DNA of 64,000 nt, from positions 1 through 64,000 of the forward strand of contig NZ_JASNVW010000005.1 of the NCBI RefSeq assembly GCF_030186535.1. The letters are read 5' to 3'. The notes beneath the pieces were generated by a model, which searched no databases, was not told where the DNA came from, and worked only from the letters and a program-made list of their open reading frames with translations. Made by a program: the position numbers and the translations under genes. Source of the stretch: Ignisphaera cupida. GTDB taxonomy: Archaea > Thermoproteota > Thermoprotei_A > Sulfolobales > Ignisphaeraceae. Positions within the stretch are counted from its first letter, which is position 1; each line of letters starts with the position of its first letter. This document shows positions 44,776 to 64,000 of this stretch, piece by piece.

Positions 44776-45603
44776 CTAGATTTTCTGATTTTCAACAACA
44801 AGTGCATTATCCTTTACTTCCACAACAACAATCTCTCCATTTTCCAGAGGAGTTCCTCTTAACCCAGCTAAGCTGTTCAGATAGTAATCAACTGTTGATG
44901 ATACAACAACAACTGTGTTTCGACTTGGCATCACTTTGTATAACTGATAATAGTTCTTGGTTTTCTCACCCTTTTCCCCAATATAGTTCAGAGAAAACGA
45001 AACTACTTTGCCGCTAGGCTCATCAACTACTATACCAGCGCAATTCAATGCTGTTTCAACAACACCAAGATCAACAAGTTTCTTTAAAGATTTTGTGATA
45101 GATGATGAATCAACACTGTCAATTGTTTTAGCAATCCAGTAAGCAACAAAAAATGAATCAGCATATCTATCCAAGAGATTTTCAAGTCCAAGCTCCTTAG
45201 CAACAACAGCTTTGTTTATAGAGCCGTTGTGAACAAACCAAAGATTAATGTTACCAGGAATGCTAATGTGAAATGGGTGAGAATTAAACACGTTTATAGG
45301 TTCAGAAACAGTTAACCTGCTATGCATTATCATATGAATCCAGTGAAAACCTCTTGGAACACCTCTGACAAACCCCCTAAAATCCTCTTCAAGTAGCGGA
45401 AGAGATGTTTTAAAGTATCCAAAGCCAAGCTCTCTAAACTTCATGTAGACAAATGCAGCTCCCCATCCATGGTTATGCGACCTTCTACCCCTTCTAACCT
45501 CATCAAGAAAAACATCATGCAAAGTAGATAATCTAAAAGCTTTTGCAACAACAAATAAATTATTCAATTCTCCAACAGATACAAAGTGAAGTAGTCTACA
45601 CAT
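44776..45603 (-). CDS. Class II glutamine amidotransferase-like (Ntn hydrolase) protein
   Basis: From ATG 45603 the protein starts MCRLLHF, so Cys2 would be the N-terminal nucleophile after Met removal, as in the GlxB/YafJ class II family (about 275 residues). A GGTG ribosome binding site and loss of homology upstream support this start over 45675. RGRRSHNHGWGAAFVY, HSRLTVSEPINVFNSHPF and LWFVHNGSINK are the expected Gln-site segments. It is encoded alone without a synthase domain. It lies downstream of the aminotransferase on the same strand, 131 bp away. The acceptor is unknown. Confidence 0.82.
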   Translation of the reverse strand: MCRLLHFVSVGELNNLFVVAKAFRLSTLHDVFLDEVRRGRRSHNHGWGAAFVYMKFRELGFGYFKTSLPLLEEDFRGFVRGVPRGFHWIHMIMHSRLTVSEPINVFNSHPFHISIPGNINLWFVHNGSINKAVVAKELGLENLLDRYADSFFVAYWIAKTIDSVDSSSITKSLKKLVDLGVVETALNCAGIVVDEPSGKVVSFSLNYIGEKGEKTKNYYQLYKVMPSRNTVVVVSSTVDYYLNSLAGLRGTPLENGEIVVVEVKDNALVVENQKI

Positions 45604-45733
45604 ATATGTCACACCAATTGAAACCCATTTTGATACATATGCTAAAAAATTTAATGCATCACCAAAGACTATCAATAAACATAATTACTATTTACCAAAG
45701 AGCTTTTACCTATCAGTTGATCAGTGAAAAAGA

Positions 45734-47098
45734 CTAATCTTGTAATCTTGGATTCCAACCCTTCATAAAACTCAGTACATCGTTTGTCACTTTACCATTT
45801 ACAACATCCTTTACAGATTCTTCAATAACTTCTAAAGCTCTTTCCATCAAATCCATTGGAACATTCAATGCAGGAGTTATCCTAATAACGTTACTGTGTT
45901 TGCCAACAGTCATAGCCACAACACCTCTTCTCCAAGCAGCCCAGCATATTTTTAAAGCATTTTTTCTATCAGGTGCTTTACTTGCATCATCCTTAACTAT
46001 CTCCATTCCTATCAAAAGCCCTTTTCCCCTCACATCACCAATAATATTAAATTTTTCACTCAATTTACTTAGTCTTCTAAGTATGTAATCCCCCAAAACC
46101 ATAGCTCTATTCACAAGATTTTCTCTTTCAATAATTTCTATGGTTTTAAGTGCTGAAATACATGATAAGGGATGTCCAGATAGATAAAAACCTAAGGCAG
46201 GTGGTGCCTCAAGAACCTCGCTTTTTCCAATAACAGCTGAAAGAGGCATGCAACCTCCAAGTGCTTTACCAATCACCATTAAATCTGGTTCAACTGAGAA
46301 GTGTTCTACACCCCACCACCTACCTGTTCTACCCATGCCTGTCTGAATTTCATCAGCTATGAAAATACCATTAAACGACTTCACTATTTTATATAACTCT
46401 TTTAGAAAGTCTTTGGGTGGAACAATGATTCCTCCATCACCTTGAATAGGCTCTACAACAACACCAACAAAATCGTTGTTTAAACTCTTCAAAGTTTTTT
46501 CAATCTCTCTTAAAATAGTATTTGTAAGTTCATCTGGTTTCTCATATCCATTGATGTTCCACGGATTTCTATAAGGGTTTGGATAAGGCACAAACACAAT
46601 GTTTTTATATAACAGGTTTTTACTGGTATCGTTTTGAGCCATTATTTCTGATGTCGATAAAGATAGATATGTTGTTCCATGGTAGGAGCCTTGGAAAGAT
46701 AGAATAAACTTTTTCTTTGTGTAGAATATTGAGGATGTTAAAGCCATGTCCACGGCATCTGAACCAGAAAAACCAAAAACAATTTTCTTCTTGTAGCTAC
46801 CAGGTGTAATATTCACTAGTTTTTGAGCAAGTTTTGAAGGTGCTTCGGCGTAGAAATAGCATGTGGGGAAGCTAGTTAGAATCTCTAGCTGCTTCTTCAA
46901 TGCATCCACAACTTCTGGATGGCTATGCCCAATAATATTGGCAAGTGTTGTAGAAAAATCTATGTATTTTCTGCCATAAGCATCCTCAATTATTGATCCA
47001 TAAGCTTTTGAAGCTATCAAGGGTAGTTGTTTCCATGAAAAAGACTTGGGAAAGAAACGCTCATCGCTCTCTATGTAATCTTCCACACTTTTGCTCAT
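45734..47098 (-). CDS. Class III (4-aminobutyrate/acetylornithine type) aminotransferase
   Basis: This 454-residue PLP enzyme has GSDAVDMALTSSIF, FQGSYHGTTYLSLS, VEPIQGDGGIIVPP, the PLP-binding DEIQTGMGRTGRWWGVEH and the lysine segment VIGKALGGCMPLSAVIG (near 275). It resembles omega-amino acid aminotransferases, which use 4-aminobutyrate, beta-alanine, ornithine or lysine derivatives. The gene overlaps the permease upstream by 38 bp, so the two are co-translated in the corrinoid methyltransferase operon. It would act on the demethylated amine; the exact donor is not decided. The ATG has a GGAG ribosome binding site. Confidence 0.9.
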   Translation of the reverse strand: MSKSVEDYIESDERFFPKSFSWKQLPLIASKAYGSIIEDAYGRKYIDFSTTLANIIGHSHPEVVDALKKQLEILTSFPTCYFYAEAPSKLAQKLVNITPGSYKKKIVFGFSGSDAVDMALTSSIFYTKKKFILSFQGSYHGTTYLSLSTSEIMAQNDTSKNLLYKNIVFVPYPNPYRNPWNINGYEKPDELTNTILREIEKTLKSLNNDFVGVVVEPIQGDGGIIVPPKDFLKELYKIVKSFNGIFIADEIQTGMGRTGRWWGVEHFSVEPDLMVIGKALGGCMPLSAVIGKSEVLEAPPALGFYLSGHPLSCISALKTIEIIERENLVNRAMVLGDYILRRLSKLSEKFNIIGDVRGKGLLIGMEIVKDDASKAPDRKNALKICWAAWRRGVVAMTVGKHSNVIRITPALNVPMDLMERALEVIEESVKDVVNGKVTNDVLSFMKGWNPRLQD

Positions 47099-48611: not shown

Positions 48612-48615
48612 GGCT

Positions 48616-50070
48616 TCAAACCTCAGGAAGTTTTTCAATTCCATATCTCTTAGCTATTTCAGTTACTGTTTTGCGAAGCTCCTTCTCAACATCTTGCGGC
48701 AAAGGCTCTGGCTGATGCTTCTTCAAAATCTCCTCAACATACTCTTTAGCAACTACCTTAAGACTCTTTCCACCCATCTTTCTCCACATATCAGCAGATC
48801 TCTTATCCAGTAGCCTTGGCATGAAGTGTTCTTTTCTCCACCACACCCTGGTGTGTTTGTGTTTTAGAAATAGGCCCCCCGGCCCCACTTCCTCAAAAAC
48901 TTTCTCAGCCAATGTATCAACATCAACATCTATACCTCTGCCAAACCTCAAAGCCATGCCAGCAACATCATCGTCTACAACAAGCTTAAGCAAGCTTATA
49001 GCATTTTCTTCGTAAAGCATTCCAGAACCTATTGCAATGTCCAGACCAGCTAAAACAGATATTATTGCGCCAATTGCTGATTCTAGAGATGCTTGCTCAT
49101 CAAACACTTTGCTATCACTAACAATTGTGTAGCTAGCACTTGGAAACCCATAGAACTTTGCCATCTGGGAAATAGCTGAGCTAATCAACTGAACCTCTAT
49201 GCTACCCGTGCAAGATGTTGCAAACCTCTGCTCAAATACAGTTGGAGAACCACTGTAGATTATCGGCGCACCTGGGTTAACAAACTGGGCTACCACAAGC
49301 CCTGATAGAAACTCTGCATTCGCTTGAACAACAGAACCAGCTATTGTTGCTGGTGCTGTTCCACCTGTTTGAGGCATTGGTATAATGTGTGCTGGAAGCC
49401 CAAGTTTTGCACAATCAATAAGGTTTTGCATTGTTAAATAACTCCATTTCAGTGGTGGTGAAGGGCATACTGCAAAGAACATGAATGGTCTTTTAGAAAC
49501 ATTCTCCTCGCCAATCACAGAAGCCATGATTTTTGCAGCATCAGGTATTCCCTCAACAGTAAAAGCACCAGTATCTATAGGTTTTGTAGTGTACTTTGCC
49601 ACAACATACATTCTCCACCTATCAGCAATAACATCTGGCACATCAGCAGGAACAAGAGCAGTTGACATAATATGTGTGTTTGAAAGATAATCCGTTACCT
49701 TCGCAACATCAGCTAAGTCTTTTGATAAAGGCCTTCTAACCTCATCTGTTCTCCAATCAATGTAGTAATAAGCTGCTGAACCAACATCAAAATACGTGTT
49801 TCTACCCTCACTCAACTCATAACACAGCTTACCATCTCTACTACAAAGCTTAACAACTTTTGGAGCTTTTGCTATGGCTTCTCTAACAAGGTTTTCTGGT
49901 ATTTTAGCAATTCTCTTGTTGAAATCAACCTCAGCACCAACACTATTTAAAAGCTTAAGAGCATTCTCATGATCAATCCTAACACCTACTCTGCTAAGAA
50001 CATTAAGAGATGCTACATGTATTTTCTCAACTTCTTCTCTACTCAAAACCTCTAGTCTTGGTCTAGCCAT
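48616..50070 (-). CDS. MttB-superfamily corrinoid methyltransferase without pyrrolysine
   Basis: About 484 residues from ATG 50070 (GGTGAG upstream). The protein matches the trimethylamine methyltransferase superfamily (PF06253): SREEVEKIHVASLNVLSRVGVRI, FDVGSAAYYYIDWRTDEVR, CPSPPLKWS, QTGGTAPATIAGSVVQANAEFL and FLKHKHTRVWW. No UAG interrupts the frame, so it is not a pyrrolysine MttB; non-Pyl members demethylate quaternary amines such as glycine betaine, proline betaine, carnitine or butyrobetaine. It moves the methyl group to the corrinoid protein encoded just upstream, which it overlaps by 8 bp. It is rare outside bacteria and methanogens. Confidence 0.9.
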   Translation of the reverse strand: MARPRLEVLSREEVEKIHVASLNVLSRVGVRIDHENALKLLNSVGAEVDFNKRIAKIPENLVREAIAKAPKVVKLCSRDGKLCYELSEGRNTYFDVGSAAYYYIDWRTDEVRRPLSKDLADVAKVTDYLSNTHIMSTALVPADVPDVIADRWRMYVVAKYTTKPIDTGAFTVEGIPDAAKIMASVIGEENVSKRPFMFFAVCPSPPLKWSYLTMQNLIDCAKLGLPAHIIPMPQTGGTAPATIAGSVVQANAEFLSGLVVAQFVNPGAPIIYSGSPTVFEQRFATSCTGSIEVQLISSAISQMAKFYGFPSASYTIVSDSKVFDEQASLESAIGAIISVLAGLDIAIGSGMLYEENAISLLKLVVDDDVAGMALRFGRGIDVDVDTLAEKVFEEVGPGGLFLKHKHTRVWWRKEHFMPRLLDKRSADMWRKMGGKSLKVVAKEYVEEILKKHQPEPLPQDVEKELRKTVTEIAKRYGIEKLPEV

Positions 50071-50749
50071 GTGTCTCACCCACTGCACTCCTCTTTTCTC
50101 TAAGCCACTTCATAACAACATCAATAGATGAAATAGCGTCAGGTGCCCACCCATCAGCTCCTATCTCCCTAGCCCACTCAGCTGATGTTGGAGCTCCACC
50201 AACAATAACCTTGACCTTGCCTCTAAGACCAGCAGCCTTAAGAGCTTCTATAGTTTCTTTTTGCTTCACCATAGTTGTTGTTAGCAAAGCACTCATACCA
50301 ACAATATCCGGGTTGTACTGCTTAACAGCCTCGACAAATTTTTGCGGAGGTACATCAACACCAAGATCAATAACCTCAATACCATTAACCTCCCAAATAG
50401 TTGCAACAATTGTTTTTCCAATGTCGTGAATATCGCCTTCAACAGTACCTATAACAGCTCTACCAACATACTCTAGCTTCCCACCTCTCTTAACAATTTC
50501 ATTCTTGAGAATAGGTATAACAACCTTTGCAGCCTCAGCAGCTGCAACAAGATCAGCTATAAAAGCTTCTCCTCTAATCCACCTATCGCCAAGCTCAAGA
50601 ACGCCAGCAACAACACATTTATTGAGAACCTCGAGAGGATTCATAGAAGCTTTGATACACTCATTTGCATATTTCAACGAGTTCTCAATATCGCCATCGA
50701 TAATGCTTTGTCTCAAGCTAAAACACAAATCTTCTCTGAAACCAGACAC
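50063..50749 (-). CDS. Methyltransferase corrinoid protein (MtbC/MttC family)
   Basis: The 228-residue protein has an N-terminal four-helix cap (to about 85) and a B12-binding Rossmann domain with the histidine motif EGDIHDIGKTI (near 105), SALLTTTM (the S-x-L segment, near 155) and VIVGGAP (the GG motif near 188), all of cobalamin-binding methyltransferase subunits. The His would bind cobalt. It is the first gene of a four-gene operon and carries the methyl group from the MttB-like enzyme to a second acceptor, probably H4MPT. A doubled TATA box lies upstream at 50780-50807. Confidence 0.93.
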   Translation of the reverse strand: MSGFREDLCFSLRQSIIDGDIENSLKYANECIKASMNPLEVLNKCVVAGVLELGDRWIRGEAFIADLVAAAEAAKVVIPILKNEIVKRGGKLEYVGRAVIGTVEGDIHDIGKTIVATIWEVNGIEVIDLGVDVPPQKFVEAVKQYNPDIVGMSALLTTTMVKQKETIEALKAAGLRGKVKVIVGGAPTSAEWAREIGADGWAPDAISSIDVVMKWLREKRSAVGETHG

Positions 50750-50779
50750 CGCTTCACACCAAAAAAACTAAAGTTTGAT

Positions 50780-50807
50780 ATGGTATATAAACCTTAATGG
50801 TATATAA
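50780..50807 (-). promoter_or_regulatory. Tandem TATA-like repeats before the corrinoid operon
   Basis: The 11-mer TTATATACCAT (minus strand) occurs twice, at 50790-50780 and 50807-50797, 17 bp apart and 31 nt or more before the corrinoid-protein ATG. The proximal copy fits a TATA box; the distal copy may be a second start site or a regulator-binding half-site. The rest of the gap to 50979 holds no gene. Confidence 0.45.
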
Positions 50808-50978
50808 GACTTAAAATGAGTATAATATGTAAACTCAGCTTAGCAAATGATTTTTATATTGACAAGATTAAACAATAGAAGTTACATTGATGGTTAATGT
50901 TCATTCGCAAATTTCCATAACATCAAAAACCCAGTTTTGCTTTACATCAACATTTTGATAAGTAAATAAATTGTATTG

Positions 50979-52434: not shown

Positions 52435-53154
52435 TTATATGCTGTAGCTAACCCAATTCAAATTGTGTTTCACACCCTTCATTCTTTTCACCATTACCCT
52501 CCACACAACATTTGAACTACTGGAAGGTTCTTGCTGAATTCTTTCGGTAAGTATTATGCCATCCACACAGTGTTCTATACTTGATAGAAGCTCTTTTGCC
52601 AAAGCTGTTGATGTATGCAGTGTTGCAATTGTTAAAACATTTCTTGCTTTTGAGAAATTGGCTCTAACATTCTTTATGTACTCAACCAAGCTCTGCATAT
52701 CACCACTGTAATAGGATAGAAACTCGTTTAGAGAATCTATTGCTATAAGCCCTCTATCCTCAATACCCAAATCAGTTACAATAGCTAGAAGAGATTCGAA
52801 AACCTGTTCAATGTTTTGAGGATTCACCTTGCTTATTACAGATACTGATAGCCTTGACTCAGAACCTCTAATTCTAAAGCTGTAGCCATCAACAATAAAG
52901 AAAAGCTTCTGCTTAACATACTCCAGAACATCAACTCCAAGACTCTTGAGCTGCTGCACAACTGTTTTTGGATCATCATCTAGAGCAAGATAGAGCACAG
53001 GCTCTCCCAGCTGAAGAATGCTTTTAGCAAAAACAGATAAAAGTATGCTCTTCCCAGAACCACCCTCACCAGCTACAACAATAAACGAGTTTCTTGGAAT
53101 TCCCTCTGGAAACAATGTTTTAAGAGGTTCTAAATCAAATCTCAGCATAGACAT
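52435..53154 (-). CDS. KaiC-like RecA-superfamily ATPase
   Basis: About 240 residues from ATG 53154 (MSMLRFD); the frame to 53226 adds an unlikely hydrophobic lead. Walker A is GEGGSGKSI and Walker B is GLIAIDSLNEFLS; the LFPEGIPRNSFIVVAGEGG opening is typical of single-domain archaeal KaiC-like proteins. The signalling role is unknown; these ATPases often work with kinases or DNA-related complexes. No partner is obvious: it lies between the cDPG synthetase-like gene and the divergent ABC exporter. Confidence 0.82.
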   Translation of the reverse strand: MSMLRFDLEPLKTLFPEGIPRNSFIVVAGEGGSGKSILLSVFAKSILQLGEPVLYLALDDDPKTVVQQLKSLGVDVLEYVKQKLFFIVDGYSFRIRGSESRLSVSVISKVNPQNIEQVFESLLAIVTDLGIEDRGLIAIDSLNEFLSYYSGDMQSLVEYIKNVRANFSKARNVLTIATLHTSTALAKELLSSIEHCVDGIILTERIQQEPSSSSNVVWRVMVKRMKGVKHNLNWVSYSI

Positions 53155-53284
53155 GATCAAAAACCGCAAAAGTGCTATACACAAAAACCTTGGTTTAGAA
53201 AGCATTATAAAGGTTTGTGTACTCAACTACTAGTCTAGCCACTAAACTTAGCAAAATATTTGATAATGCTAGTGGTTGTTTTGT

Positions 53285-54271
53285 ATGAGTGGAGTTATTG
53301 TGGAGAACATTAGGAAAAGCTATGTTAGTAGAGAGGGTTTTAGAAAGAAGCGTGTTGTTGAGGCTTTGAAGGGTGTTTCCCTAGCTGTTAGAAGAGGTGA
53401 GATTCATGCTCTTCTTGGCCCAAATGGAGCTGGGAAAACAACACTTATAAAGATATTGGCTACGCTTCTTCTACCCGATGATGGAAAAGCCTATGTTAAT
53501 GGTTATGACGTTGTTAAAGAGGCTGAGAAGGTTAGAAGTGTTATTGGTGTTGTTTTGGATGTTTCCAAAGGTTTTTACACATCTCTTAGTGGCTATGAGA
53601 ATCTTGTTTTCTATGCTCTTCTAAAGGGGTATTCATATGGTGAAGCTAGGAAGAGGGTTAGAGAGGTTTTGGAGCTTGTTGGTCTCTACGAAATGAATGC
53701 TCACAACAGACCATATTACACATATAGTCTTGGTATGAGGGCTAGGCTATCAATAGCAAAAGCTCTTTTAACAAACCCACCTGTTTTGCTACTTGATGAA
53801 CCCACACTTGGACTAGATGTTGAAAGCGCAAAGACTGTGAGAAAACTTGTGATGGACTTGGCTAAGGAAGGTAGAACAATTCTTGTAACAGGGCATAACA
53901 TGTATGAAATTGAGCAAATAGCATCCTCCATAACCATAATAAACAAGGGTTTGGTTATAGCATCTGGAGCACCAGCAGATCTCAAAACAAGACTAGGTCT
54001 CATGCTAAGAGTTTCCATGAGAATTGGTGATGTTAATAGCAATGTTGCTGAATATGTGAAGAACTTGATACCTGTTGAGAAAATTTCCATGGAGTTTAAT
54101 GCTGATAGCACAAGAATAGTTTTCTATACTAAAGCCAGTAGGGAAGAGGTTATACAAGGAATTATGCAAATACATAAATCTTTTGATGTTAAAATAATTG
54201 ATCTTGTTATTGAGGAGCCAACACTTGAGGATGCATACATTGCTGTTGTTGGTGGAGAACATGGTTCTTAG
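53285..54271 (+). CDS. ABC-2 type exporter ATPase
   Basis: The 328-residue ATPase has Walker A GPNGAGKTT, signature YSLGMRARLSIAKAL, Walker B VLLLDEPTLGLD and the H-loop GHNMYE, followed by a C-terminal domain of the DrrA/CcmA type (APADLKTRLG, EPTLEDAYIAVVGG). It starts at the ATG at 53285 or three codons earlier. Its end overlaps the first permease by 11 bp, and a second permease follows, giving an ATPase-permease-permease exporter for a drug, lipid or peptide. Confidence 0.92.
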   Translation: MSGVIVENIRKSYVSREGFRKKRVVEALKGVSLAVRRGEIHALLGPNGAGKTTLIKILATLLLPDDGKAYVNGYDVVKEAEKVRSVIGVVLDVSKGFYTSLSGYENLVFYALLKGYSYGEARKRVREVLELVGLYEMNAHNRPYYTYSLGMRARLSIAKALLTNPPVLLLDEPTLGLDVESAKTVRKLVMDLAKEGRTILVTGHNMYEIEQIASSITIINKGLVIASGAPADLKTRLGLMLRVSMRIGDVNSNVAEYVKNLIPVEKISMEFNADSTRIVFYTKASREEVIQGIMQIHKSFDVKIIDLVIEEPTLEDAYIAVVGGEHGS

Positions 54272-55082
54272 AGTTTTGAATGCTTTAACATATAGAGAAG
54301 TTGCATGGTTTAGAAGATTCTTCGCAGATTATGTAATTTCATGGATATTCCCACTAGCTTTGTCAGTTGGAGTAATATTCTTGCCAGCATCAATATCAGG
54401 TGTAAACACTGTTCTTAGTAGAATGAGCAATTTGTTTAACTATCAAATGGATTTGAAAACAGCTTATAGCCTCGCACTTGCGCTAACAGGTATAGTCAAT
54501 GTTGTTGCTATTGTTATTAACGATGTTATTCAAACAATGTTTGCAGAATTCAGATTCATGGAAGTTGGGTGGATGATTCTTGAAACAACTGGGCTAGTCA
54601 AATACACAATTGCAAATGCCATTATTAGACCAGCTATAATGACTCCACTAGCAACATTGTTTCTGGCTCCACTACTTCTCTACCTCAATGGCTTCAGCGG
54701 CTTAGTAACATTTGCATTACTTGAGCTAGTGTTTATAGCAACATCTATTGCACTAGGATTTTACTCAACCATTGTTGCAATTCCCTTAACATTTCACACA
54801 AAAATCTCGAGACCCTGGACCATAGCAAACACCTTGGCACCTGCAATACTTGCTGGAACCGGGGTTTACATCCCAGTAAATCTTGTGCCTGCTATTCTAA
54901 GATTTTTCGCATATTCAACTCCTGTTCCAAGGTCATGTGAAATAGTTTATTTGATATCTTTAAGGGGTTTTCCAAGCGAGATAACACTTTTTCTTGTGTT
55001 CATAACATTTCTAACATCATTGTATCTAGCTGTTTCTGGTATCTTGTCGAAGAATGCTGATGCTAGGGTGAGAAAAGGTTGA
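54261..55082 (+). CDS. ABC-2 type exporter permease, first
   Basis: About 273 residues with six hydrophobic segments. It starts at ATG 54261 inside the end of the ATPase gene, with a GGTGGAG site; the frame to 54198 is shared with the ATPase and is not translated separately. The long outer loop after the first helix and the segment TPVPRSCEIVYLISLRGFP are usual in ABC-2 permeases. It pairs with the second permease, which overlaps it by 4 bp. The substrate is unknown. Confidence 0.85.
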   Translation: MVLRVLNALTYREVAWFRRFFADYVISWIFPLALSVGVIFLPASISGVNTVLSRMSNLFNYQMDLKTAYSLALALTGIVNVVAIVINDVIQTMFAEFRFMEVGWMILETTGLVKYTIANAIIRPAIMTPLATLFLAPLLLYLNGFSGLVTFALLELVFIATSIALGFYSTIVAIPLTFHTKISRPWTIANTLAPAILAGTGVYIPVNLVPAILRFFAYSTPVPRSCEIVYLISLRGFPSEITLFLVFITFLTSLYLAVSGILSKNADARVRKG

Positions 55083-55858
55083 ATCTAAAGAAAACACTGC
55101 ATGTGATATATGTAGGCTTTGTCTTGTCGAAAATGCATATAACAGCATATGTAGCAGCAATCATTAACACGATATTGTGGTTCACAATAATATTTGTTCC
55201 AGCAACTGTTTTTAGCGAGGATCCTAAAATGGCTATGTCCATGTTTCTACCAGGGGTATATGCATTAACAGTTGCAAGCGCAGCTATGTGGACAGCTACA
55301 GAGTTTTTGAGGTGGAATGTTTACCATGGCTTAACAGATTTGTATAGAGAGAATGGGTTGACAGTGTTTCATTATTTGATTAGCTACTCAATTGTTGACT
55401 CAATATTCTTTGGAATTGCAACATACTTTGCATCAACATATATAATCGCGTCTTATACCGGGCTAAGCTTTTTCAATGCTCTTCCAGCAAACCCTCAATA
55501 TTTGCTTCTAGCCATTGTTGTTGCAATACCAATGTATCTTTTGATGGGATCTTTAATAGGTTATTTAATGGCGTCAACCTCTGTGAGTGGGGCATGGATA
55601 AACATAATTCAAATGATAGTTGCATTTGGAACTATTGTACCGCCAAAGACAATTCCAAGTGGTTGGCTAATACTCTTAAACCCATCCACATATGTTGCAG
55701 AGATTCTGAGAATAGGGTACAACACAAACACGGTTTCATCAAATGCGCTAGTTGTTTCAATCCCCATAGCAATAGCTTTGTTTACCCTGCTTGGATACTG
55801 GATTGGTTTTTTATGCGATAAGAGAATTGCTAGATATGGTCTTGAGTACAGGTATTAA
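55079..55858 (+). CDS. ABC-2 type exporter permease, second
   Basis: A 259-residue membrane protein with six helices. The TTG start overlaps the previous stop by 4 bp, so it is translationally coupled. IPSGWLILLNPSTYVAEILRIGYN before the last helices is a common ABC-2 permease feature. It forms a heterodimer with the first permease. Its end is 6 bp from the convergent DNA glycosylase gene. Confidence 0.85.
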   Translation: MNLKKTLHVIYVGFVLSKMHITAYVAAIINTILWFTIIFVPATVFSEDPKMAMSMFLPGVYALTVASAAMWTATEFLRWNVYHGLTDLYRENGLTVFHYLISYSIVDSIFFGIATYFASTYIIASYTGLSFFNALPANPQYLLLAIVVAIPMYLLMGSLIGYLMASTSVSGAWINIIQMIVAFGTIVPPKTIPSGWLILLNPSTYVAEILRIGYNTNTVSSNALVVSIPIAIALFTLLGYWIGFLCDKRIARYGLEYRY

Positions 55859-55863
55859 GGGGT

Positions 55864-56808
55864 TTAATAATACCATGTGTCGTAGTATATAGGCTCTTTG
55901 AAAAACAAGCTATTTTTAAATGATTTGCAAAAATCTTTAAATGGGCATGCAGAGCATTTTGGATTTTCAGCTGTGCAAATACCTCTTCCAAAAACCCACA
56001 TGAAATCATCTAGCAAAAGAACATCAACATTGCTAAGCCTTGACAACTGCTTGTATGCTTCCCTAACGGCTATGCGAATAAGAATATCCTCATCATGCGT
56101 AATAGCAACTTCATCAACAACTTTTCTAAGGAGATTGTTCTCAAGCTCGACAATGCCAAGTCTTAAAGCAATTCTTGTTAAGTGATTATCTACAGCCACA
56201 TGCAAATTCTCTTTATCGATTGGATTAAACAAGCCTCTGTAGACAAGGAACTTAACAAGAAGAAAAGCCTTTTTCTCAACAGGATCCTGATAGGCCTTAA
56301 ACACCTTCACCAAATCCAGAAAACCATAGCCATTAAGTAATCTGAGATAACCATTTGACAGCAAAACAATGTTTCTTGGACTACTGTTGTATAGCGCAAT
56401 AATCTTTTTGCCAAGGTCGTTGAGAAGATGGGTTCTAAGCTTTATGTCAACAGGTTTTGCATTTCCTATAGATAACCACTTCTCAACTTCCTCCTCACTG
56501 ATTCTAGCCATGCGATTAGGTGTAAAGAAATCTGGATTGCTTCTAAACATCTCCATCCCAAGTCTGTAAAGAAGATCAGCACCCCTAACTCTTTCACCAC
56601 CAACAACAGCCTCATATGGCTTCCCAGGTCTGCTAAGCCTATGATCCATAGAGACCATAACCAGAAAATACATCAAAACATTGTCTAAAGGCTCGTTAGA
56701 TTCTGGATAAAGCCTTGAATCAAAAACATTCATTCTATGAGCACTGTTAATCACATTAGGCAAGATATTTGCTATATTTACAATCTTGTCATTAATTATC
56801 ATAGGCAT
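55864..56808 (-). CDS. FeS-cluster HhH-GPD-like DNA glycosylase
   Basis: About 314 residues from ATG 56808, which follows GGTG; earlier starts give a non-conserved hydrophobic lead. Near the C-terminus the cluster loop CTAENPKCSACPFKDFC (Cx6Cx2Cx5C) is that of endonuclease III/MutY glycosylases. The helical body with NLLRKVVDEVAITHDEDILIRIAVREAY before it fits, but the classic HhH-GPD lysine and Gly-Pro-Asp segment is not clear, so it may be an unusual or catalytically diverged member. It probably acts in base-excision repair; the substrate base is unknown. Confidence 0.65.
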   Translation of the reverse strand: MPMIINDKIVNIANILPNVINSAHRMNVFDSRLYPESNEPLDNVLMYFLVMVSMDHRLSRPGKPYEAVVGGERVRGADLLYRLGMEMFRSNPDFFTPNRMARISEEEVEKWLSIGNAKPVDIKLRTHLLNDLGKKIIALYNSSPRNIVLLSNGYLRLLNGYGFLDLVKVFKAYQDPVEKKAFLLVKFLVYRGLFNPIDKENLHVAVDNHLTRIALRLGIVELENNLLRKVVDEVAITHDEDILIRIAVREAYKQLSRLSNVDVLLLDDFMWVFGRGICTAENPKCSACPFKDFCKSFKNSLFFKEPIYYDTWYY

Positions 56809-56898
56809 TTTAAACACCATTAAAATAGAGCTAGATTTGCAACTAACAAAATATTTTAACTTATCAAAGATTTTTTGGAATAGTGGTGAGCAAGCTAT

Positions 56899-57609
56899 AA
56901 GTACTCTTAACAAGAGTTTCTAAAGCTTTTAAAGAAGATGAAGAGTTTCATTATGCTGTAGCATGTTTGCTAGGTCTTGACGAAATTCTTAAGAGACTTG
57001 ATAGAAATGAGCAGGAATTAATCAAGCTTAAAGAAAGATTTTCACATGTTCATGAAGGAGCAAGAGAAGAGATGGGAAGAAAATAATAGACGATGGGAGG
57101 AAAATAATAAGCGCTGGGAGGAGAACAATAGATGATGGGAAGAGGCTTACAAAAGATTTGAAGCTATTGAGAATGAGTTAAAGAGGTTAAGAGAGGATTT
57201 TAATAGATTTGTTGAATTGGAGGAGAAGAGGTGGATGGAGGCAAACAAGAGATTCTCCAGAATTGAACTTGAGCTAGTTGTTTTAACAAAGGCAACACTG
57301 TCTAGATATGTGTTAGAGGATCTTGGAGAGGAGATCAGGTTTAGAGGTGAGGAGATATTGAATAGATACAGAAATCTTGCTATAGATGGTGAAGAAATAG
57401 ATCTTGTTATTGAAACTAATAGGAGTGTATATGTTGCAGAGATAAAGATTAAACCAAGTGTTGAGGATGTTAAAGATTTGATAAACAAGACTGAAATTGT
57501 TGGTAGGAAATTTGGCAAGTCGGTTACATCGATAATGGCTGATGTATACATAGGTGATGAAGTAATAAACTTTGCTAGAAGCAGAAGTGCATTGATTTAC
57601 AGCTACTGA
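56899..57609 (+). pseudogene. Decayed DUF3782-like coiled-coil/PD-(D/E)XK nuclease gene
   Basis: The intact piece (57217-57609, about 130 residues) ends in a PD-(D/E)XK core: IDLVIETNRSVYVAEIKIK. In the same frame upstream is a coiled coil of RWEENN repeats broken by TGA at 57133-57135, where the parallel repeats have CGA, so this is a C-to-T nonsense change. Further upstream the N-terminal helix (VSKAFKEDEEFHYAVACLLGLDEILKRLDRN) is in another frame; one extra A near 57030 explains the shift. No good start codon precedes it. At least two lesions make it a pseudogene of a multi-copy archaeal family. Confidence 0.8.
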
Positions 57610-57738
57610 TGATCTATTGCTACTAAGTTAAATGTTTTCCAAAGGATTTGAAACAAGAAAACAATGCATTGACAAATTTGTTAATATTTTTGTGAAGGTC
57701 TTAACCATAGTTAAGAATTTGAGAATTCAAAACAATGG

Positions 57739-58611
57739 TTATGCCGCTCTTTCCTCTCTAAAGTATATTTCTCCAAGGGCTTTTGGCACAACAAGTTTTT
57801 TGCTTAGTGGTGTTGCATAGACTATGACAACTATTGCTAGTGATGCTATAAACGGTAATGCGCTTATAACATCTGGTGGTACTCCGTAGAGTAGCTGCAA
57901 TGCGTATAGGGATGTGTATAGATATCCAAATACTATGGCAACTGGGTATGCTATTAGTGGATGCCATGAAGATGCCATGGCAAGGGTTATTGCTAGAAAG
58001 CCATAACCCATTCCAGTGTATTGAGACCATCCACTTCTGTAAATAGCTGTATATATGTATGAGCCTATTGAGATTATTGTGTATCCAATTACTGTTCCCA
58101 AGAACCTTGTTCTCCACACTCTAACACCAGCCATTTCAGCTGCTCTTGGGTTAAAGCCGCATGCCCTTAGGGCAATGCCGAATCTTGTTTTGTGTAGAAG
58201 AAGCCATGTTGCAGCAGTTGATGCAACACCTATTAGAATAAGCATTGGCTTTCCTATCATTAGCGGTATTATGGACCTGCTTTTCATGTATCTAAGCCCT
58301 ATTAGTGCTCCAATGCCATAGAAAACTATGTTTAGAGATAGCCCTGTTAGAACATGGGGTGCGTGAAGTATGTTGATAAACACTATGAAGATTATTGATA
58401 GTGCTATTGTTGATAGCAATGATATTACAAAGCCTGGTAAGTAGCCTATGTTCTGTGTAGAGACAAATGCTATTGCTATTGAGCATGTTATTATACCGTC
58501 TATTGCAAGGTTTATAACACCACTTCTCTCAACAACTATGTCTCCCAAAACCCAGAGAAGCAATGCCACTACAAATGAGTTAGAAAGTGCAGATATTATT
58601 TCACTAAGCAT
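57739..58611 (-). CDS. BMP-type nucleoside ABC permease, second
   Basis: About 290 residues and eight or more helices of the BPD_transp_2 family, related to nucleoside permeases (NupQ/RnsD). LLLHKTRFGIALRACGFNPRAAEMAGVRVWRTRF is the coupling-helix segment and is shared almost word for word with the partner permease. ATG 58611 follows GGTGAG and is better than the frame start at 58671. The gene starts 5 bp before the end of the upstream permease. It is the last of four genes: binding protein, ATPase, two permeases. Confidence 0.88.
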   Translation of the reverse strand: MLSEIISALSNSFVVALLLWVLGDIVVERSGVINLAIDGIITCSIAIAFVSTQNIGYLPGFVISLLSTIALSIIFIVFINILHAPHVLTGLSLNIVFYGIGALIGLRYMKSRSIIPLMIGKPMLILIGVASTAATWLLLHKTRFGIALRACGFNPRAAEMAGVRVWRTRFLGTVIGYTIISIGSYIYTAIYRSGWSQYTGMGYGFLAITLAMASSWHPLIAYPVAIVFGYLYTSLYALQLLYGVPPDVISALPFIASLAIVVIVYATPLSKKLVVPKALGEIYFREERAA

Positions 58612-58615
58612 TTTC

Positions 58616-59671
58616 TCACCTAACAACAATCTTATATCTAGACACAAACTCTGCAACCATTGTAGCAGCAAAGAGTGTTCCCACTATAGCTTTTGAAAGA
58701 GCATCTCCAATAGCTGCACTACCAATTTGCAAAGCGAAGCTTAGTCTATAGAGAGCTGCTGTATAGTATGATGCTGCCAAAACACCAAATGGGTTTAAAC
58801 CACCAAGCCAAGCAACCATTATTGATGTAAACCCCATTCCACTTCCAACAATATCTCCCTCAACAAGTTTTCTGTGGTAAACAAGTATTTCAGAACCTCC
58901 AACAAAACCAGCTAAAGCAGCTGAAAATGTAAATGCTGCCAAGGCAAGTTTCTTGCTCGACATTCCAGAAAGCTCAACAGCTGATATGCTTGAGCTTAGA
59001 GCTCTCAAAGCTATGCCAAATCTTGTTTTGTATAAAAGAAGATAGGCTATAGCAACAAATGCAAGTGCTATAATCACTATGTACCATGAGAAGCTGTAGC
59101 CAGGAACAACAGGAATTTTTGATTCATCTGGAATTAGATCTGTTGTTGGATATCCATAAACCCCCCTGCCTCTCCAAGGACCTTTAACAAGATAATTTGT
59201 GAAGTAGTAAGCAACATAGTTCATTAGAAGTGTTACAACAGCTTCATTAACTCCTAGATAAAGCTTCATAAGAGATGGTGGAATAGACCACAGCAAACCG
59301 CAGAGAGATGCGAATAGAAGAGCAGTTACTGGTGCTGCAAAATCTATTTTTCCAATTGGTGTGTAAAGAGCTATGAAAGTTGCTCCAACAGCTCCGATAA
59401 CAAGCTGTCCTTCTGCACCAAGATTCCAAAGCCTAGCGTTAAATGCTATTGAGAGACCAAGTGCAGTTGGGAGAAAAACGGAAATGTATCTTAGAACATT
59501 TAAATCAGCAAAACTTTCAAAAGCTGTTTTCAGTGTTTCTACAAAGCTAAGTCCTGTAACAGATGATGTTATGAGAACAGCTACTAAAAGCCCTGCAAAA
59601 GCTGTTAAAACTCTTACTAAAATGCTTAAATGTGTTGGCAAAACCCTTTTAACAACAACTATTTTAGCCAT
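58616..59671 (-). CDS. BMP-type nucleoside ABC permease, first
   Basis: The 351-residue membrane protein is the partner of the preceding entry, of the same family (NupP/RnsC-like). LSIAFNARLWNLGAEGQLVIGAV (near 75) and LLYKTRFGIALRALSSSISAVELSGMSSKKL are family marks. It starts inside the ATPase gene (8-bp overlap), so the two are translationally coupled. It makes the heterodimeric channel for a nucleoside or purine-like substrate. Confidence 0.9.
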   Translation of the reverse strand: MAKIVVVKRVLPTHLSILVRVLTAFAGLLVAVLITSSVTGLSFVETLKTAFESFADLNVLRYISVFLPTALGLSIAFNARLWNLGAEGQLVIGAVGATFIALYTPIGKIDFAAPVTALLFASLCGLLWSIPPSLMKLYLGVNEAVVTLLMNYVAYYFTNYLVKGPWRGRGVYGYPTTDLIPDESKIPVVPGYSFSWYIVIIALAFVAIAYLLLYKTRFGIALRALSSSISAVELSGMSSKKLALAAFTFSAALAGFVGGSEILVYHRKLVEGDIVGSGMGFTSIMVAWLGGLNPFGVLAASYYTAALYRLSFALQIGSAAIGDALSKAIVGTLFAATMVAEFVSRYKIVVR

Positions 59672-61133
59672 AGACCATGACCTTCTCTATCTCACTTCTA
59701 TAAATCTCCAGATTCTCACCCTCGAAAACCCTAGCTATTCTACCATTAACAATAACAGCTACTCTATTGGAAACTTGAATAGCTTCATCAACATCTTCAG
59801 TAATTAGAAGAACACCTCCACCAGTTTGAGCAAATTTTTGCATAGTGTCCAACACAAGTATTCTAGATTTCTCATCAAGCATTCTAGTTGGGTTATGAGC
59901 AACAACAATTTTTGGCATTGTCAATAGCAATCTGCTTACAGAAACCTTTTGCACATTTCCACCAGAAAGCTTAGCAACTTGGGTAACAGGATTCTCAGGA
60001 ACAATCCCAAGCTTCTTAATAGCATCCAATACAGTATCATGACCTATTCTTTCTCTAGCATACATTCTCATGTTCTCAGCAATTGAAAGTGTTAATGCAA
60101 CACCTTCTCTGAATGGATCCTCAGGTATGTATATAAGCCCCTTTCTAACTCTCTCACTTGGCGAATCCCTTGTAACATCAAATCCATTAATCTTTATAGA
60201 GCCTTTCGAAACCTTTCTAAGACCAGCTATAGCCTCTCCCAACTCCCTCTCACCATTCCCAGCTATTCCAACAATAGACACAATCTCGCCAGAGCCAACA
60301 TCTATTGAAAGACTATTCACAGCTGCTTTGCCATAATCATCAAAAACAGTTACTTTGTCAACAACCAAAACCTTTGAATCTCTCTTCACAATTCTCATAA
60401 GCTGCTTAGGAATAATGCCTAGATACTCTTCAAAACCAAACATTGCTTGGCGAATCTCCGAAGCTTCAACACCTTTGCCAAACACATTCACAACTCTGCC
60501 TTTTCTAAGAACAACAAACCTATCTCCAATCTCTAGCGCTTCTGGAATCTTATGTGTTATATACAAAACAGATTCGTTTCTCAACACAAGATGTTTTATT
60601 ATTTCAAAAAATCTTTGCTTCAAATCATGTGGAAGATAGGTTGCAGCCTCATCTACTATTAAAAGCTTTGGATTTATCATCAAAGCTTTTACCAATTCTA
60701 TGAACTGCTTCTCGGTGTAGCTAATGCTATAAACCTTTCTATTGATATCCATGGAGAATCCAAAGTCTTTTAAAACATTTTCAACTCTTCTTGCAAGAGA
60801 TTTCGATGGTGTTTCATCTAGAAACAAAGCAATGTTTTCTAAAATACTCAAGTCATCTATTAACTGAGGTCTTTGACTTATCATCACAATTCCTTTTCTC
60901 TTCGCATCGTAAGGTGATGAAAACTTTGCCTCCTCTCCATCAACTATTATTTTTCCCTTGTCAGGAACATAAGCACCACACAATATCTTTGCTAATGTTG
61001 ATTTTCCAGAACCATTCTCCCCAAGAACAACAAGAATCTCGCCTCTGAAAACATCTAGAGTAACGCCATCAAGTGCAACAATATCTCCAAATCTTTTTTG
61101 AACATCAACAATTTTTACAATGGCGCTACTCAT
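59664..61133 (-). CDS. BMP-type nucleoside ABC ATPase, two domains
   Basis: The 489-residue ATPase has two nucleotide domains. The first has GENGSGKST and a signature replaced by SYTEKQFIELVKAL; its Walker B is LLIVDEAATYL. The second has a degenerate P-loop GIAGNGERE, a good signature LSGGNVQKVSVSRLL and Walker B IVVAHNPTRMLD. This pattern is typical of NupO/RnsB-like ATPases of nucleoside importers. It follows the binding-protein gene by 66 bp on the same strand and overlaps the next permease gene. Confidence 0.92.
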   Translation of the reverse strand: MSSAIVKIVDVQKRFGDIVALDGVTLDVFRGEILVVLGENGSGKSTLAKILCGAYVPDKGKIIVDGEEAKFSSPYDAKRKGIVMISQRPQLIDDLSILENIALFLDETPSKSLARRVENVLKDFGFSMDINRKVYSISYTEKQFIELVKALMINPKLLIVDEAATYLPHDLKQRFFEIIKHLVLRNESVLYITHKIPEALEIGDRFVVLRKGRVVNVFGKGVEASEIRQAMFGFEEYLGIIPKQLMRIVKRDSKVLVVDKVTVFDDYGKAAVNSLSIDVGSGEIVSIVGIAGNGERELGEAIAGLRKVSKGSIKINGFDVTRDSPSERVRKGLIYIPEDPFREGVALTLSIAENMRMYARERIGHDTVLDAIKKLGIVPENPVTQVAKLSGGNVQKVSVSRLLLTMPKIVVAHNPTRMLDEKSRILVLDTMQKFAQTGGGVLLITEDVDEAIQVSNRVAVIVNGRIARVFEGENLEIYRSEIEKVMVYG

Positions 61134-61199
61134 TTGCTTTTCCTCAAAAAAAGATTTTTGTGAGAAGATTATAAAAAATGCTTTTGCTTTAGACTCATC

Positions 61200-62678
61200 T
61201 CAACCCATCTTGCCCTGGAAAGCAACCCATGAAACAAACCAGTCCATGTTCCACAAATCATCATGTGTTAGTCTCTCACCAGGTTTCACACTAACCTCGC
61301 TTCCAGCAGCTTTTCCACTGCAGAATCTTGAGTATGAAGCTATGCAGTAGCCTTTTAGAGGTCCTGTGAATGGGTCGAAAACAGGTGCTATTGTGGCTGC
61401 TGGTACGTGGCTAGAGCCTGTTGATACACTTGCTAAAGACTCTAGCTCATGTGTCAAGGCAGTTCCTTGTAGAGATTCAAGAATTGGTGCTTCTCTCATC
61501 TCGTTGTATCTCTTCATAACAAGGTCATAGACGCTCATAGCTTCACCTGTTCTAACATCTTTAACCATGATGTTTTTGAGTATTGGAATGAACTTTGGAT
61601 TAATTCTCATAACAGTTCCATTTGGATAAACATGTGCTCCAAGATCAACAGCACCTGTGTTAAGCAAATACCAATAATCAACATTTTCGAGATTACCTGG
61701 TCTATAGATACCTGCTTTCACTTTAGCCAATATGTCTGCATATATAACCTCCCATCTAACAAGCTGTCCACTAACAACAACATCTGGTCCCCATTCATAC
61801 ATTGGGCTGTAGTGGCTAAACACATACACCTCCTTGCCTTGTTTATAGAGACTTTCAGCATATTCAACAATAGCTGTTGAATCCTCTGTAAATGCAAGCA
61901 CATCAACATTGAATTGCTTAACAAGTGTTTCAGCAGCTGCCTTTGCCTTGTCTGGATCATACCAAGCACCAATTTCAATAACGTAAACAGTTATGTTCTT
62001 GCCTAGCTGCTCACCAACCTCCTTAGCACCTATGGCAAAAGCATTTATGTGTCTAACAACCTCTGGAATTGTGTGTGCAGCTACATAGCCTATTTTCCCA
62101 GTTTTTGTTAGTGCACCAGCCATTAGCCCATTCAAATAGTATATTTGATACAAATCAGCAAAGTATGTTCCCATGTTAGGTGCTCTTTTATATCCAGAGC
62201 AGTGAAAGAACATAACATTTGGATATTCCTTAGCCTTCTCAAGTGTTTGATCCATGAAATCAAAACTTGTTGTAAATATCACTGTATAGCCTTTTCTAAC
62301 AAGATCATCTATTACAGCAGGAGATTGAGCTGCCTGAACATTCTCAACATACGTTGTTTCAAGCCAGTCCTTGTAAAGCTCAGCAACAACCCTTCTACCA
62401 ATATCATGCATATAGCTCCAACCATAATCACCAACAGGTCCAACATAAACAAAAGCAGCTTTCACCTTAGCAGGAGGAGTATATGTAGCAACACCAACAG
62501 CAGATGTCACTGTCTGAGTATATGTCATTGTTACTGTTTGATAAGCTCCTGGAGCAGTTACTGTTACAGTTTGTGGAGGAGCAGCTACTTTTGGAGTTGC
62601 ATAATACCCTATAAAATAGCCTGCAACTATTCCAATTACAAGCAACGCAATTGCTATTCCATAAACTGTTTTAGCCAT
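61200..62678 (-). CDS. BMP-family nucleoside-binding protein
   Basis: About 492 residues from ATG 62678, which follows GGTG; the frame start at 62690 is less likely. A membrane anchor (about residues 5-25) and a Thr/Val-rich linker precede the BMP fold: KVKAAFVYVGPVGDYGWSYMHDIGRR, YTVIFTTSFDFMDQTLEKAK, YPNVMFFHCSGY, IGYVAAHTIPEVVRHINAFAIGAK and VDVLAFTEDSTAIVEYAE. The family binds nucleosides such as guanosine or adenosine, or related purines. It is the first gene of the importer operon; a CRISPR-repeat-like element lies upstream of its promoter. Confidence 0.9.
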   Translation of the reverse strand: MAKTVYGIAIALLVIGIVAGYFIGYYATPKVAAPPQTVTVTAPGAYQTVTMTYTQTVTSAVGVATYTPPAKVKAAFVYVGPVGDYGWSYMHDIGRRVVAELYKDWLETTYVENVQAAQSPAVIDDLVRKGYTVIFTTSFDFMDQTLEKAKEYPNVMFFHCSGYKRAPNMGTYFADLYQIYYLNGLMAGALTKTGKIGYVAAHTIPEVVRHINAFAIGAKEVGEQLGKNITVYVIEIGAWYDPDKAKAAAETLVKQFNVDVLAFTEDSTAIVEYAESLYKQGKEVYVFSHYSPMYEWGPDVVVSGQLVRWEVIYADILAKVKAGIYRPGNLENVDYWYLLNTGAVDLGAHVYPNGTVMRINPKFIPILKNIMVKDVRTGEAMSVYDLVMKRYNEMREAPILESLQGTALTHELESLASVSTGSSHVPAATIAPVFDPFTGPLKGYCIASYSRFCSGKAAGSEVSVKPGERLTHDDLWNMDWFVSWVAFQGKMG

Positions 62679-62740
62679 TTCACACACCATGAAACCACAT
62701 TGCGTTAAAGCTTAAAAAACTCTTTCTATAACAACCATGT

Positions 62741-62750
62741 AGTTATATAC
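62741..62750 (-). promoter_or_regulatory. TATA box of the BMP importer operon
   Basis: The minus strand reads GTATATAACT, giving a leader of about 40 nt to the ATG at 62678, which has a GGTG ribosome binding site. Confidence 0.5.
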
Positions 62751-62772
62751 ATAAGTTATGTAAAACAAGAAT

Positions 62773-62796
62773 CTTTCAATTCCATTTGATGAATTC
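62773..62796 (-). repeat. Solitary CRISPR-repeat-like element upstream of the BMP operon
   Basis: The minus strand starts GAATTCATCAAATGGAATTG and ends AAAG, matching the CRISPR repeat at 21 of 24 positions. It lies 23 bp upstream of the TATA box. An 11-bp piece, TTGATGAATTC, recurs at 62843-62853 in the end of the neighbouring gene. Confidence 0.5.
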
Positions 62797-62811
62797 CATG
62801 GAGAGAAGAGA

Positions 62812-64000
62812 TTAAGTGTGGTTTGGAGGTAGTTGGAGTGAGTTGATGAATTCTTGTTTGAATAGTGGGTGTATTGTTAGTTCTATGTACTTTATTTTTT
62901 TGGCTAGCTCCTCGAATTTTTCTCTTACATCACTTGATTTTAGAGCCATTTTTGCTCCACTTATGGCCGTGTTTCCAACGAATATGTATTTTCTTGTATC
63001 TGTTTTTGGTAGTAGTCCTGTTGTTATTGCGTTTTCAATGTTTATGTGTGTTCCGAAGGAGCCTGCTACAAAGATTTTTGAAAGATTTTCAGCTGTTATG
63101 TTAGCATGTTTTAGCAAAACGTTTATGCCTGCAGCTACAGCTGCTTTTGCTAGTAGAAACTCGTTTATGTCTCTACCATCTATTGTTATGTTTTTGTTTA
63201 TTCCTGTTTCGCTTGCCCATGCAATAACAAACTTCTTTCTATTGTTCTCAACAACAATTCTCTTTGAGTTGACATTGTTTTTGAATCTTCCTCTGCTATC
63301 TATCAATCCATTTTTGTAGAGATTGGCAATAGCATCTATTAGTGCTGAACCACATATACCAACTGGTTTTGCGTTTCCAACAACACTGTATCTAACGTTG
63401 TAATCGCCAATTGATTTGTCGAAGTATATGAAGACCTGGTCTATAGCTCCTGCAACAGCCCTCATTCCAAACTCTATAGTTGCACCCTCGAATGCTGGTC
63501 CAGCTGGTGTTGAGCAAGCCAATATCTCTCTACCTGTATTTAGAAGTATTTCGCTATTTGTTCCAATGTCTATTAAGAGACATGGAGCATCACAATTATC
63601 CAAATCAACAGCTATTGCATCTGCCAATGCATCTGATCCAACATAACCAGCTACAACTGGTAATGCATATACAACCCCTCTCTCATTTATGTTAATACCA
63701 ATTTCCTTTGCAAATGCATAAACACCTCTTCTAACTGCTGGAACATATGGTGAAAGACCAAGATACCTGGGGTCTATACCTAGAAACAGGTGGTGCATAG
63801 CTGTATTACCTGCAACAACAACTTCGTATATATTGCTCTTGTCTACTCCTGTTCTAGAAACCATTCTATCTATCAAAATGTTTACTGCTGATATAACAAG
63901 CTTTTGAAGCTTCTCCAAATTACTTCCATCCTTTATGGCATATGATATTCTAGATATTATGTCTGCTCCATAGCTAGCCTGGGGATTTGGCATAGACTCT
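62812..64000 (-). CDS. RACE-type corrinoid-activating protein (ASKHA/DUF4445), C-terminal part
   Basis: About 396 residues are visible and the frame is open to the window edge, so the N-terminus (where RACE proteins carry a 2Fe-2S domain) is missing. The family ASKHA core is clear: VVAGNTAMHHLFLGIDPRYLG, VAGYVGSDALADAIAVDLD, LLIDIGTNSEILLN, CSTPAGPAFEGATIEFGMRAVAGAI, GICGSALIDAIA and KIFVAGSFGTHINIENA. These proteins use ATP to reduce inactive Co(II) corrinoid back to Co(I). It is 12 kb from the corrinoid methyltransferase operon and directly upstream of the BMP operon on the same strand. Confidence 0.9.
   Translation of the reverse strand, partial: ESMPNPQASYGADIISRISYAIKDGSNLEKLQKLVISAVNILIDRMVSRTGVDKSNIYEVVVAGNTAMHHLFLGIDPRYLGLSPYVPAVRRGVYAFAKEIGININERGVVYALPVVAGYVGSDALADAIAVDLDNCDAPCLLIDIGTNSEILLNTGREILACSTPAGPAFEGATIEFGMRAVAGAIDQVFIYFDKSIGDYNVRYSVVGNAKPVGICGSALIDAIANLYKNGLIDSRGRFKNNVNSKRIVVENNRKKFVIAWASETGINKNITIDGRDINEFLLAKAAVAAGINVLLKHANITAENLSKIFVAGSFGTHINIENAITTGLLPKTDTRKYIFVGNTAISGAKMALKSSDVREKFEELAKKIKYIELTIHPLFKQEFINSLQLPPNHT

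Follow-up and report, generated by a model that had tools for sequence, protein, structure and literature searches.

The first 64 kb of a 95.5 kb contig (C5) of Ignisphaera cupida, referred to below as the window, carry a small operon which probably serves to harvest methyl groups by way of an MttB-superfamily methyltransferase, a corrinoid protein, an MtrH encoded elsewhere in the genome and tetrahydromethanopterin (H4MPT). The genes, their linkage, their orthology and their co-occurrence are direct observations, and it is from these that we infer the individual steps. The genome (1.74 Mb in 14 contigs, 99.9% complete, 0.3% contamination) is that of a heat-loving archaeon which probably does not make methane.

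The operon consists of four genes on the minus strand, which code, in this order, for the corrinoid protein, the methyltransferase (MttB), an APC-superfamily permease and a class-III pyridoxal phosphate (PLP) enzyme. With the likely start codons, the first 8 bp of the MttB gene (ATG at 50070) lie within the corrinoid gene. It is followed, after a gap of 4 bp, by the permease gene (likely start ATG at 48611), which in turn overlaps the PLP gene by 38 bp. The tight operon described in the first-pass annotation is thus confirmed, as are the open MttB frame without UAG and a RACE-type activator gene about 12 kb away (a RACo gene, from 62812). The general proposal, a corrinoid methyltransferase module with its own permease in an archaeon that does not look like a methanogen, is also supported. 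The relevant features are:

50063..50749, minus strand: corrinoid protein (MttC/MtgC-like) with a DxHxxG cobalt-ligand motif; Pfam B12-binding and B12-binding_2
48616..50088, minus strand: MttB-superfamily methyltransferase of the non-pyrrolysine type (Val323 at the Pyl334 position); PF06253
47061..48644, minus strand: APC-superfamily permease, the third member of the trio that is conserved; PF13520, 128 bits
45734..47098, minus strand: accessory PLP enzyme of class III, from the branch with the amino-acid racemases; its annotation is aminotransferase; PF00202
62812..64000, minus strand, extending as far as contig position 64671: reductive activator of corrinoid proteins, RACo-type (RACo1); PF14574 and PF17651
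44776..45675, minus strand: class-II glutamine-amidotransferase-like protein, whose gene follows the PLP gene at a distance of 58 bp; PF13230, 24 bits
20211..28996, no single strand: H4MPT biosynthesis genes (DHPS-like TIGR00284, MptD/MptA/MptE-like, RFAP synthase-like, dihydromethanopterin-reductase-like, CitG-like)

For the glutamine-amidotransferase-like gene, no counterpart was found in the other cassettes, and its product is probably not part of the module. The genes between the operon and RACo1 (52435-62690) have no visible part in it.

The methyltransferase and its corrinoid partner

The corrinoid protein contains both B12-related domains (B12-binding, E 2.9e-29; B12-binding_2, E 7.4e-13), and its cobalt-ligand motif reads GDIHDIGK. 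Its best NCBIfam match is MtgC, at 190 bits and below the cut-off of 310. It adjoins MttB in all five Ignisphaera cassettes. MttB itself matches PF06253 over its full length (residues 9-475, 285 bits with a cut-off of 25) and is thus a member of the superfamily. The best-scoring solved relative is 7xcl (E 2.7e-70), and MtgB (2qne) is matched with E 1.7e-61. Against TIGR02369, the model for the pyrrolysine-containing trimethylamine enzyme, MttB scores 420 bits and stays below the cut-off of 525. Its gene has no in-frame UAG, and the positions of Pyl334 and Tyr364 are occupied by Val323 and Ile353. Judged from the sequence, it is therefore unlikely that trimethylamine is used through the pyrrolysine mechanism (PMC9842639). 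The known relatives without pyrrolysine (for their names see PMC11291895 and PMC9723716) make a methyl donor that is quaternary or activated in some other way the natural guess.

In a maximum likelihood tree of 61 sequences (MtpB, MtcB and MtyB are not among them), MttB from Ignisphaera and Culexarchaeia form one clade (support 100/100). This clade is nested in a large, mostly uncharacterised group from archaea and anaerobic bacteria, with MtgB and the pyrrolysine MttB outside. There is no grouping with MtgB in this tree, as 2qne and 4yyc are separated from all other rows (100/100). The closest named relatives are from metagenome-assembled Ignisphaera genomes (68-71% identity), followed by Candidatus Culexarchaeum nevadense (73%, best segment). 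Val occupies the Pyl334 position in Ignisphaera and Culexarchaeia, and Leu in most of the larger group; at the Tyr364 position the former have Ile and most of the latter Ser. An SDxK motif after the Tyr364 position is kept in nearly all rows.

Pyrrolysine, its Tyr364 partner and every characterised family-specific residue are absent, which might be taken as a sign of a relative that has degenerated or lost its catalytic function. We consider this very improbable. The protein is full-length, is conserved at 68-73% over two phylum-level groups and is always accompanied by its corrinoid partner, and both the SDxK motif and Met238 are retained throughout the clade.

The trio of corrinoid protein, MttB and permease is found in five of 11 Ignisphaera genomes, each time with different neighbours, and its occurrence at different loci points to a mobile, transferable cassette. 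In G004, G007, G008 and G010, the permease orthologs (64-67% identity) follow directly after MttB. Two genomes from another family of the same order (G028, G056) have an MttB at 41-42%. The Culexarchaeia orthologs are closer (69-73% for MttB, 61-62% for the corrinoid partner). One of these genomes (G176) has the gene order MtrH-corrinoid-MttB, and in another (G113) a RACo gene adjoins the MttB cassette. In G185, which belongs to the same order as I. cupida, genes for a permease, a racemase-like PLP enzyme, MtrH, corrinoid protein and MttB are found together, with the permease frame broken. Two characteristics of the Culexarchaeia-type module are thus found in I. cupida: an orthologous MttB with an adjacent corrinoid protein, and an MtrH in the genome, unlinked to MttB.

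Candidate methyl acceptors and the activator

According to the first-pass annotation no second methyltransferase (corrinoid to H4MPT) is visible. This holds within the window but not for the genome, where a genome-wide search revealed a single MtrH (C2:203796-204629, E 6.5e-82; NCBIfam 341 bits with a cut-off of 287). By family profile, its best PDB relatives are MtrH 8z9u (396 bits) and the methylcorrinoid:tetrahydrofolate (THF) methyltransferase MtgA 6sj8 (276 bits). The gene adjoins the methanofuran-synthesis gene MfnB (PF04476), not MttB. Genes for an iron/cobamide-type ABC transporter (Peripla_BP_2, FecCD-like; L059:2192-5165 on C2) lie some 3 kb away from the MfnB-MtrH pair, and cobamide uptake is a possible function of this transporter.

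The methyl acceptor would be supplied by the H4MPT synthesis genes. In this region, TIGR00284 is matched above its cut-off (393 bits) and flavoprotein and CitG domains are found, while the other genes were assigned by reading the sequence. Two RFAP-synthase-like (GHMP-type) genes occur in or near the region (23489-24478 and 34427-35476). Beyond the window, C5 codes for Mch, Fmd subunits, Ftr, a Mtd-like protein and an H4MPT-linked protein, and contig C3 codes for subunits of carbon monoxide dehydrogenase/acetyl-CoA synthase (CODH/ACS) and for a second RACo (RACo2), beside an ADP-forming acyl-CoA ligase. Nearly the whole H4MPT Wood-Ljungdahl pathway plus CODH/ACS is thus encoded. A tentative candidate for the methylene-H4MPT reductase (MTHFR-like) is a conserved protein of 254 aa (L060:6492-7256(-), corresponding to C3:6492-7256), which is encoded beside CODH/ACS or, in G009, beside MtrH. 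Sequence searches of Pfam, NCBIfam and the PDB gave no match for it. Its AlphaFold model (pLDDT 77) has MTHFR as best match (TM 0.67), with many other TIM barrels close behind. The assignment is supported by position, as such genes occur beside CODH genes, Mtd, MtrH or the MetE-like clusters described below.

All five Ignisphaera genomes with MttB contain MtrH, Mch and CdhD along with a pair of RACo genes, and MttB is missing from G006 and G009, the two that lack Mch and CdhD. These two retain MtrH, RACo1 and corrinoid proteins despite the absence of Mch and CdhD. We extended the count to 398 Thermoproteota genomes (51 with and 347 without MttB); the figures are uncorrected for phylogeny. MtrH is present in 30 of the 51 genomes with MttB and in 98 of the 347 without it. 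MtrH or a MetE-like protein is found in nearly all of the former (48 of 51) and in 107 of the latter (Fisher p 8.6e-19, likewise uncorrected).

Several points weigh against methyl transfer through MtrH and H4MPT as the function of the cassette. No characterised enzyme that would point to a substrate lies within the MttB clade. In Ignisphaera, MtrH never adjoins MttB and is also present in MttB-less species; it therefore has other work, and its main partners could be three further corrinoid proteins of this genome, each paired with a URO-D-family methyltransferase. The MtrH of Culexarchaeia is 35% identical to that of Ignisphaera. The putative methylene-H4MPT reductase step depends on a structural model, as the protein itself matched no family. 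Finally, a MetE-like protein (C10:1983-2993), a putative core methionine synthase of divergent sequence, is an alternative methyl acceptor.

In the alternative based on this last protein, the corrinoid protein would pass methyl groups mainly to homocysteine, and the cassette would serve the biosynthetic supply of methionine instead of catabolism or acetogenesis. A corrinoid-MttB pair is indeed found beside a MetE-like gene in G028, G056, G339, G374, G399 and Sulfolobales S1_Bin_78, and among these G028 and G056 are devoid of MtrH, CdhD and Mch, and G339 of MtrH and Mch. The MetE-like protein is present in all sampled Ignisphaera with MttB. Its zinc ligands (H209, C211, E234, C297) are invariant in 11 rows and correspond to those of core methionine synthases (H, C, E/D, C). 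It is above the cut-off for Pfam Meth_synt_2 (34 bits, cut-off 21) and far below that for the named family PRK00957 (44 bits, cut-off 258). However, the MetE-like gene of Ignisphaera is unlinked and occurs also in MttB-less genomes (G003, G005, G009), where corrinoid proteins linked to CODH or MtrH could feed it, and the close Culexarchaeia cassette has MtrH, not a MetE-like gene. We regard homocysteine as the principal acceptor as possible but doubtful. Core methionine synthases which are fed by corrinoid proteins are known or predicted (MesA-C, PMC7857596), and a corrinoid protein shared by betaine demethylation and methionine synthesis has been proposed for marine bacteria (PMC12478193). 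For Thermoprotei, split MetE is the only form of methionine synthase that PMC7857596 reports. Given these synthases and the corrinoid-MttB pairs beside MetE-like genes, the methyl group may also, or even mainly, end up in methionine.

Other Sulfolobales (L226, L227, L228, L230-L233) have a conserved cluster of genes for a divergent MetE-like protein, a corrinoid protein, a distant RACo-like, an MtrH-like and an MTHFR-like protein, the latter being absent from L228; parts of the cluster are found in L229 and L235. By its sequences this looks like a multi-protein corrinoid methionine synthase, which is undescribed in the literature that we found. The MetE-like gene on C10 is flanked by CRISPR-array-like repeat stretches (L061:1-3800), followed by type III (Cmr-like) genes.

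Both fates can be combined into a joint reading, to which we give even chances: an exchangeable corrinoid hub in Thermoproteota which is charged by MttB (from a methylated amine) or by MtrH (from methyl-pterin) and discharged by MtrH or by a new, deeply diverged core methionine synthase. If this is true, some Sulfolobales in which Mch, MtrH and (where tested) CODH are missing would derive their methionine straight from a methylated amine by means of a RACo-corrinoid-MttB-MetE cassette. In other Sulfolobales, a methionine synthase of five genes (MTHFR-MtrH-corrinoid-RACo-MetE) would do this work. The Ignisphaera cassette would then be the catabolic version, with the APC permease specialising it for an N-methylated amino acid.

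RACo1 (619 aa at full length, with an N-terminal ferredoxin-like 2Fe-2S domain) clusters in the tree with RACos from other genera that are encoded next to MttB cassettes. The CODH-linked RACo2 proteins form a clade of their own (100/100), set apart from it by a long branch with full support, so that RACo1 is not the CODH/ACS-linked activator AcsV. This agrees with the earlier view that the activator is of the methyltransferase type. The claim that it is the module's own had to be given up, since RACo1 is found genus-wide, and its synteny with a Bmp-type ABC transporter extends to species that lack MttB (e.g. G009). It is therefore best read as a probable general methyltransferase activator, shared by several systems; its other clients are likely the three corrinoid proteins paired with URO-D-family methyltransferases. 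The Bmp/PnrA-type ABC transporter is encoded at 57739-62690, beside RACo1 (62812-64671), and some genomes have a thymidylate-synthase-like gene there. This suggests some link between RACo1 and the transporter.

One of the URO-D methyltransferase genes which is located beside a corrinoid gene (L145:11006-12271(+), corresponding to C7:14005-15270) has an in-frame TAG at codon 94. As this TAG is absent from the relatives in four other genomes, it probably marks a broken copy or one with an error, and not a pyrrolysine codon.

Permease, racemase-like enzyme and candidate substrates

The best characterised match of the PLP enzyme is the broad-specificity amino-acid racemase (BAR) from Pyrococcus (9wrf, 482 bits, 47% identity), a protein which was itself first annotated as a 4-aminobutyrate (GABA) transaminase (PMC6047364). 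The tree groups the enzyme and the protein from the G185 operon (52% identity) with 9wrf (support 90/97), which places it among the BAR-type fold-type I racemases as far as sequence can tell. The score against the omega-aminotransferase model GABA-T (TIGR00700) is 304.5 bits, well below the cut-off of 506.65. The gene was not found in the other four Ignisphaera cassettes; together with genes for a permease, MtrH, corrinoid protein and MttB it recurs only in one order-mate, G185. Having considered the gene to be unrelated to the module, as it is absent from these four cassettes, we withdrew this view on account of G185.

With this assignment, the methylated 4-aminobutyrate or lysine derivative suggested as substrate in the first-pass annotation has lost its main support. 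Such an omega-amino acid, deaminated by an omega-aminotransferase, would be consistent with the class-III fold and the tight operon, and the MttB relative MtyB is known to use gamma-butyrobetaine (PMC8604678). The enzyme is nonetheless nearest to alpha-amino-acid racemases, which have been misannotated as GABA transaminases before, and four of the five Ignisphaera cassettes do without it. We consider a substrate of this kind quite unlikely. Only slightly better placed, and still improbable, is glycine betaine, the substrate of MtgB. It is used by MttB relatives without pyrrolysine (PMC6855144, PMC12478193), and MtgB (2qne) is among the structures that MttB matches. However, MttB is in a clade apart from MtgB, which has Leu and His where Ignisphaera MttB has Val and Ile (Pyl334 and Tyr364 positions), the transporter of the cassette is of the APC type and not a betaine-type carrier, and the corrinoid protein scores below the MtgC cut-offs. 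Taken together, the permease and the PLP enzyme favour an amino-acid-like methylated substrate over an omega-amino acid, and an N-methylated alpha-amino acid or a betaine fits better.

Proposed route and comparison with known systems

In the route through MtrH and H4MPT, which we favour, the APC permease would import an N-methylated amino-acid-like compound (a betaine or an N-methyl amino acid), and MttB would transfer one methyl group to the corrinoid protein with its cobalt in the Co(I) state. Should the cobalt lapse into Co(II), RACo1 would reduce it again. The unlinked MtrH would pass the methyl group on to H4MPT, and methyl-H4MPT could then be used in two ways: for acetyl-CoA synthesis by CODH/ACS, with formation of ATP by the ADP-forming acyl-CoA ligase, or for oxidation to CO2 by the MTHFR-like protein, MtdB, Mch, Ftr and Fwd. 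The demethylated amino acid would be processed by the racemase-like PLP enzyme where this is present. This is a complete candidate route from a methylated compound to acetyl-CoA or CO2, with all steps named but one.

Methylotrophy based on MttB, a corrinoid protein and MtrH in archaea that are not methanogens has been published for Culexarchaeia (PMC9723716) and for Asgard archaea (PMC11291895), and the latter study mentions homologs in Thermoproteota. Our literature search found no paper which ties Ignisphaera to corrinoid methyltransferases. The core of the module is thus already known, and what is new in the window is the addition of the permease and the racemase-like gene. Corrinoid methyl harvesting, which has been predicted for Culexarchaeia, Brockarchaeota and Asgard archaea, would be extended to Ignisphaera and other hyperthermophiles of the order Sulfolobales. 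The more novel part is the cassettes coupled to methionine synthase. There, the place of MtrH next to the MttB-corrinoid pair is taken by a divergent methionine synthase, which makes a role of these cassettes in methionine synthesis a testable case.

The closest known system is the mtrH-mttB-corrinoid-activator module of Culexarchaeia (PMC9723716), with an orthologous MttB, a corrinoid partner, no pyrrolysine and, as in Ignisphaera, a host with H4MPT Wood-Ljungdahl genes. The Ignisphaera cassette differs in adding the APC permease and, in this genome, the racemase-like PLP gene, and its MtrH is unlinked and of another subtype. The glycine betaine system MtgBC-MtgA of Desulfitobacterium (2qne, 6sj8) shares the combination of methyltransferase, corrinoid protein and MtrH-family corrinoid:pterin methyltransferase. 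However, MttB of Ignisphaera belongs to a separate clade, the NCBIfam cut-offs for MtgC and MtgA are not reached, H4MPT takes the place of THF, and the transporter differs. With the pyrrolysine system MttB-MttC of Methanosarcina (7xcl, PMC9842639), the fold and the corrinoid partner are alike, but the Ignisphaera gene has no UAG, and Pyl334 and Tyr364 are replaced by Val and Ile. The PLP enzyme resembles the racemase PH0138 of Pyrococcus horikoshii (9wrf; PMC6047364) in identity and tree position, while the operon context differs. In MesA-MesD (PMC7857596) and in the marine MtgBCDE system (PMC12478193), methyl groups go from a corrinoid protein to homocysteine, and the MetE-like relative keeps the zinc ligands. 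The Thermoproteota MetE-like family differs in being distant (44 bits to PRK00957) and in its linkage to MttB or MtrH cassettes. The spacing of its zinc ligands (2, 23, 63) resembles that of MesA and MetE more than that of MesB or MesC.

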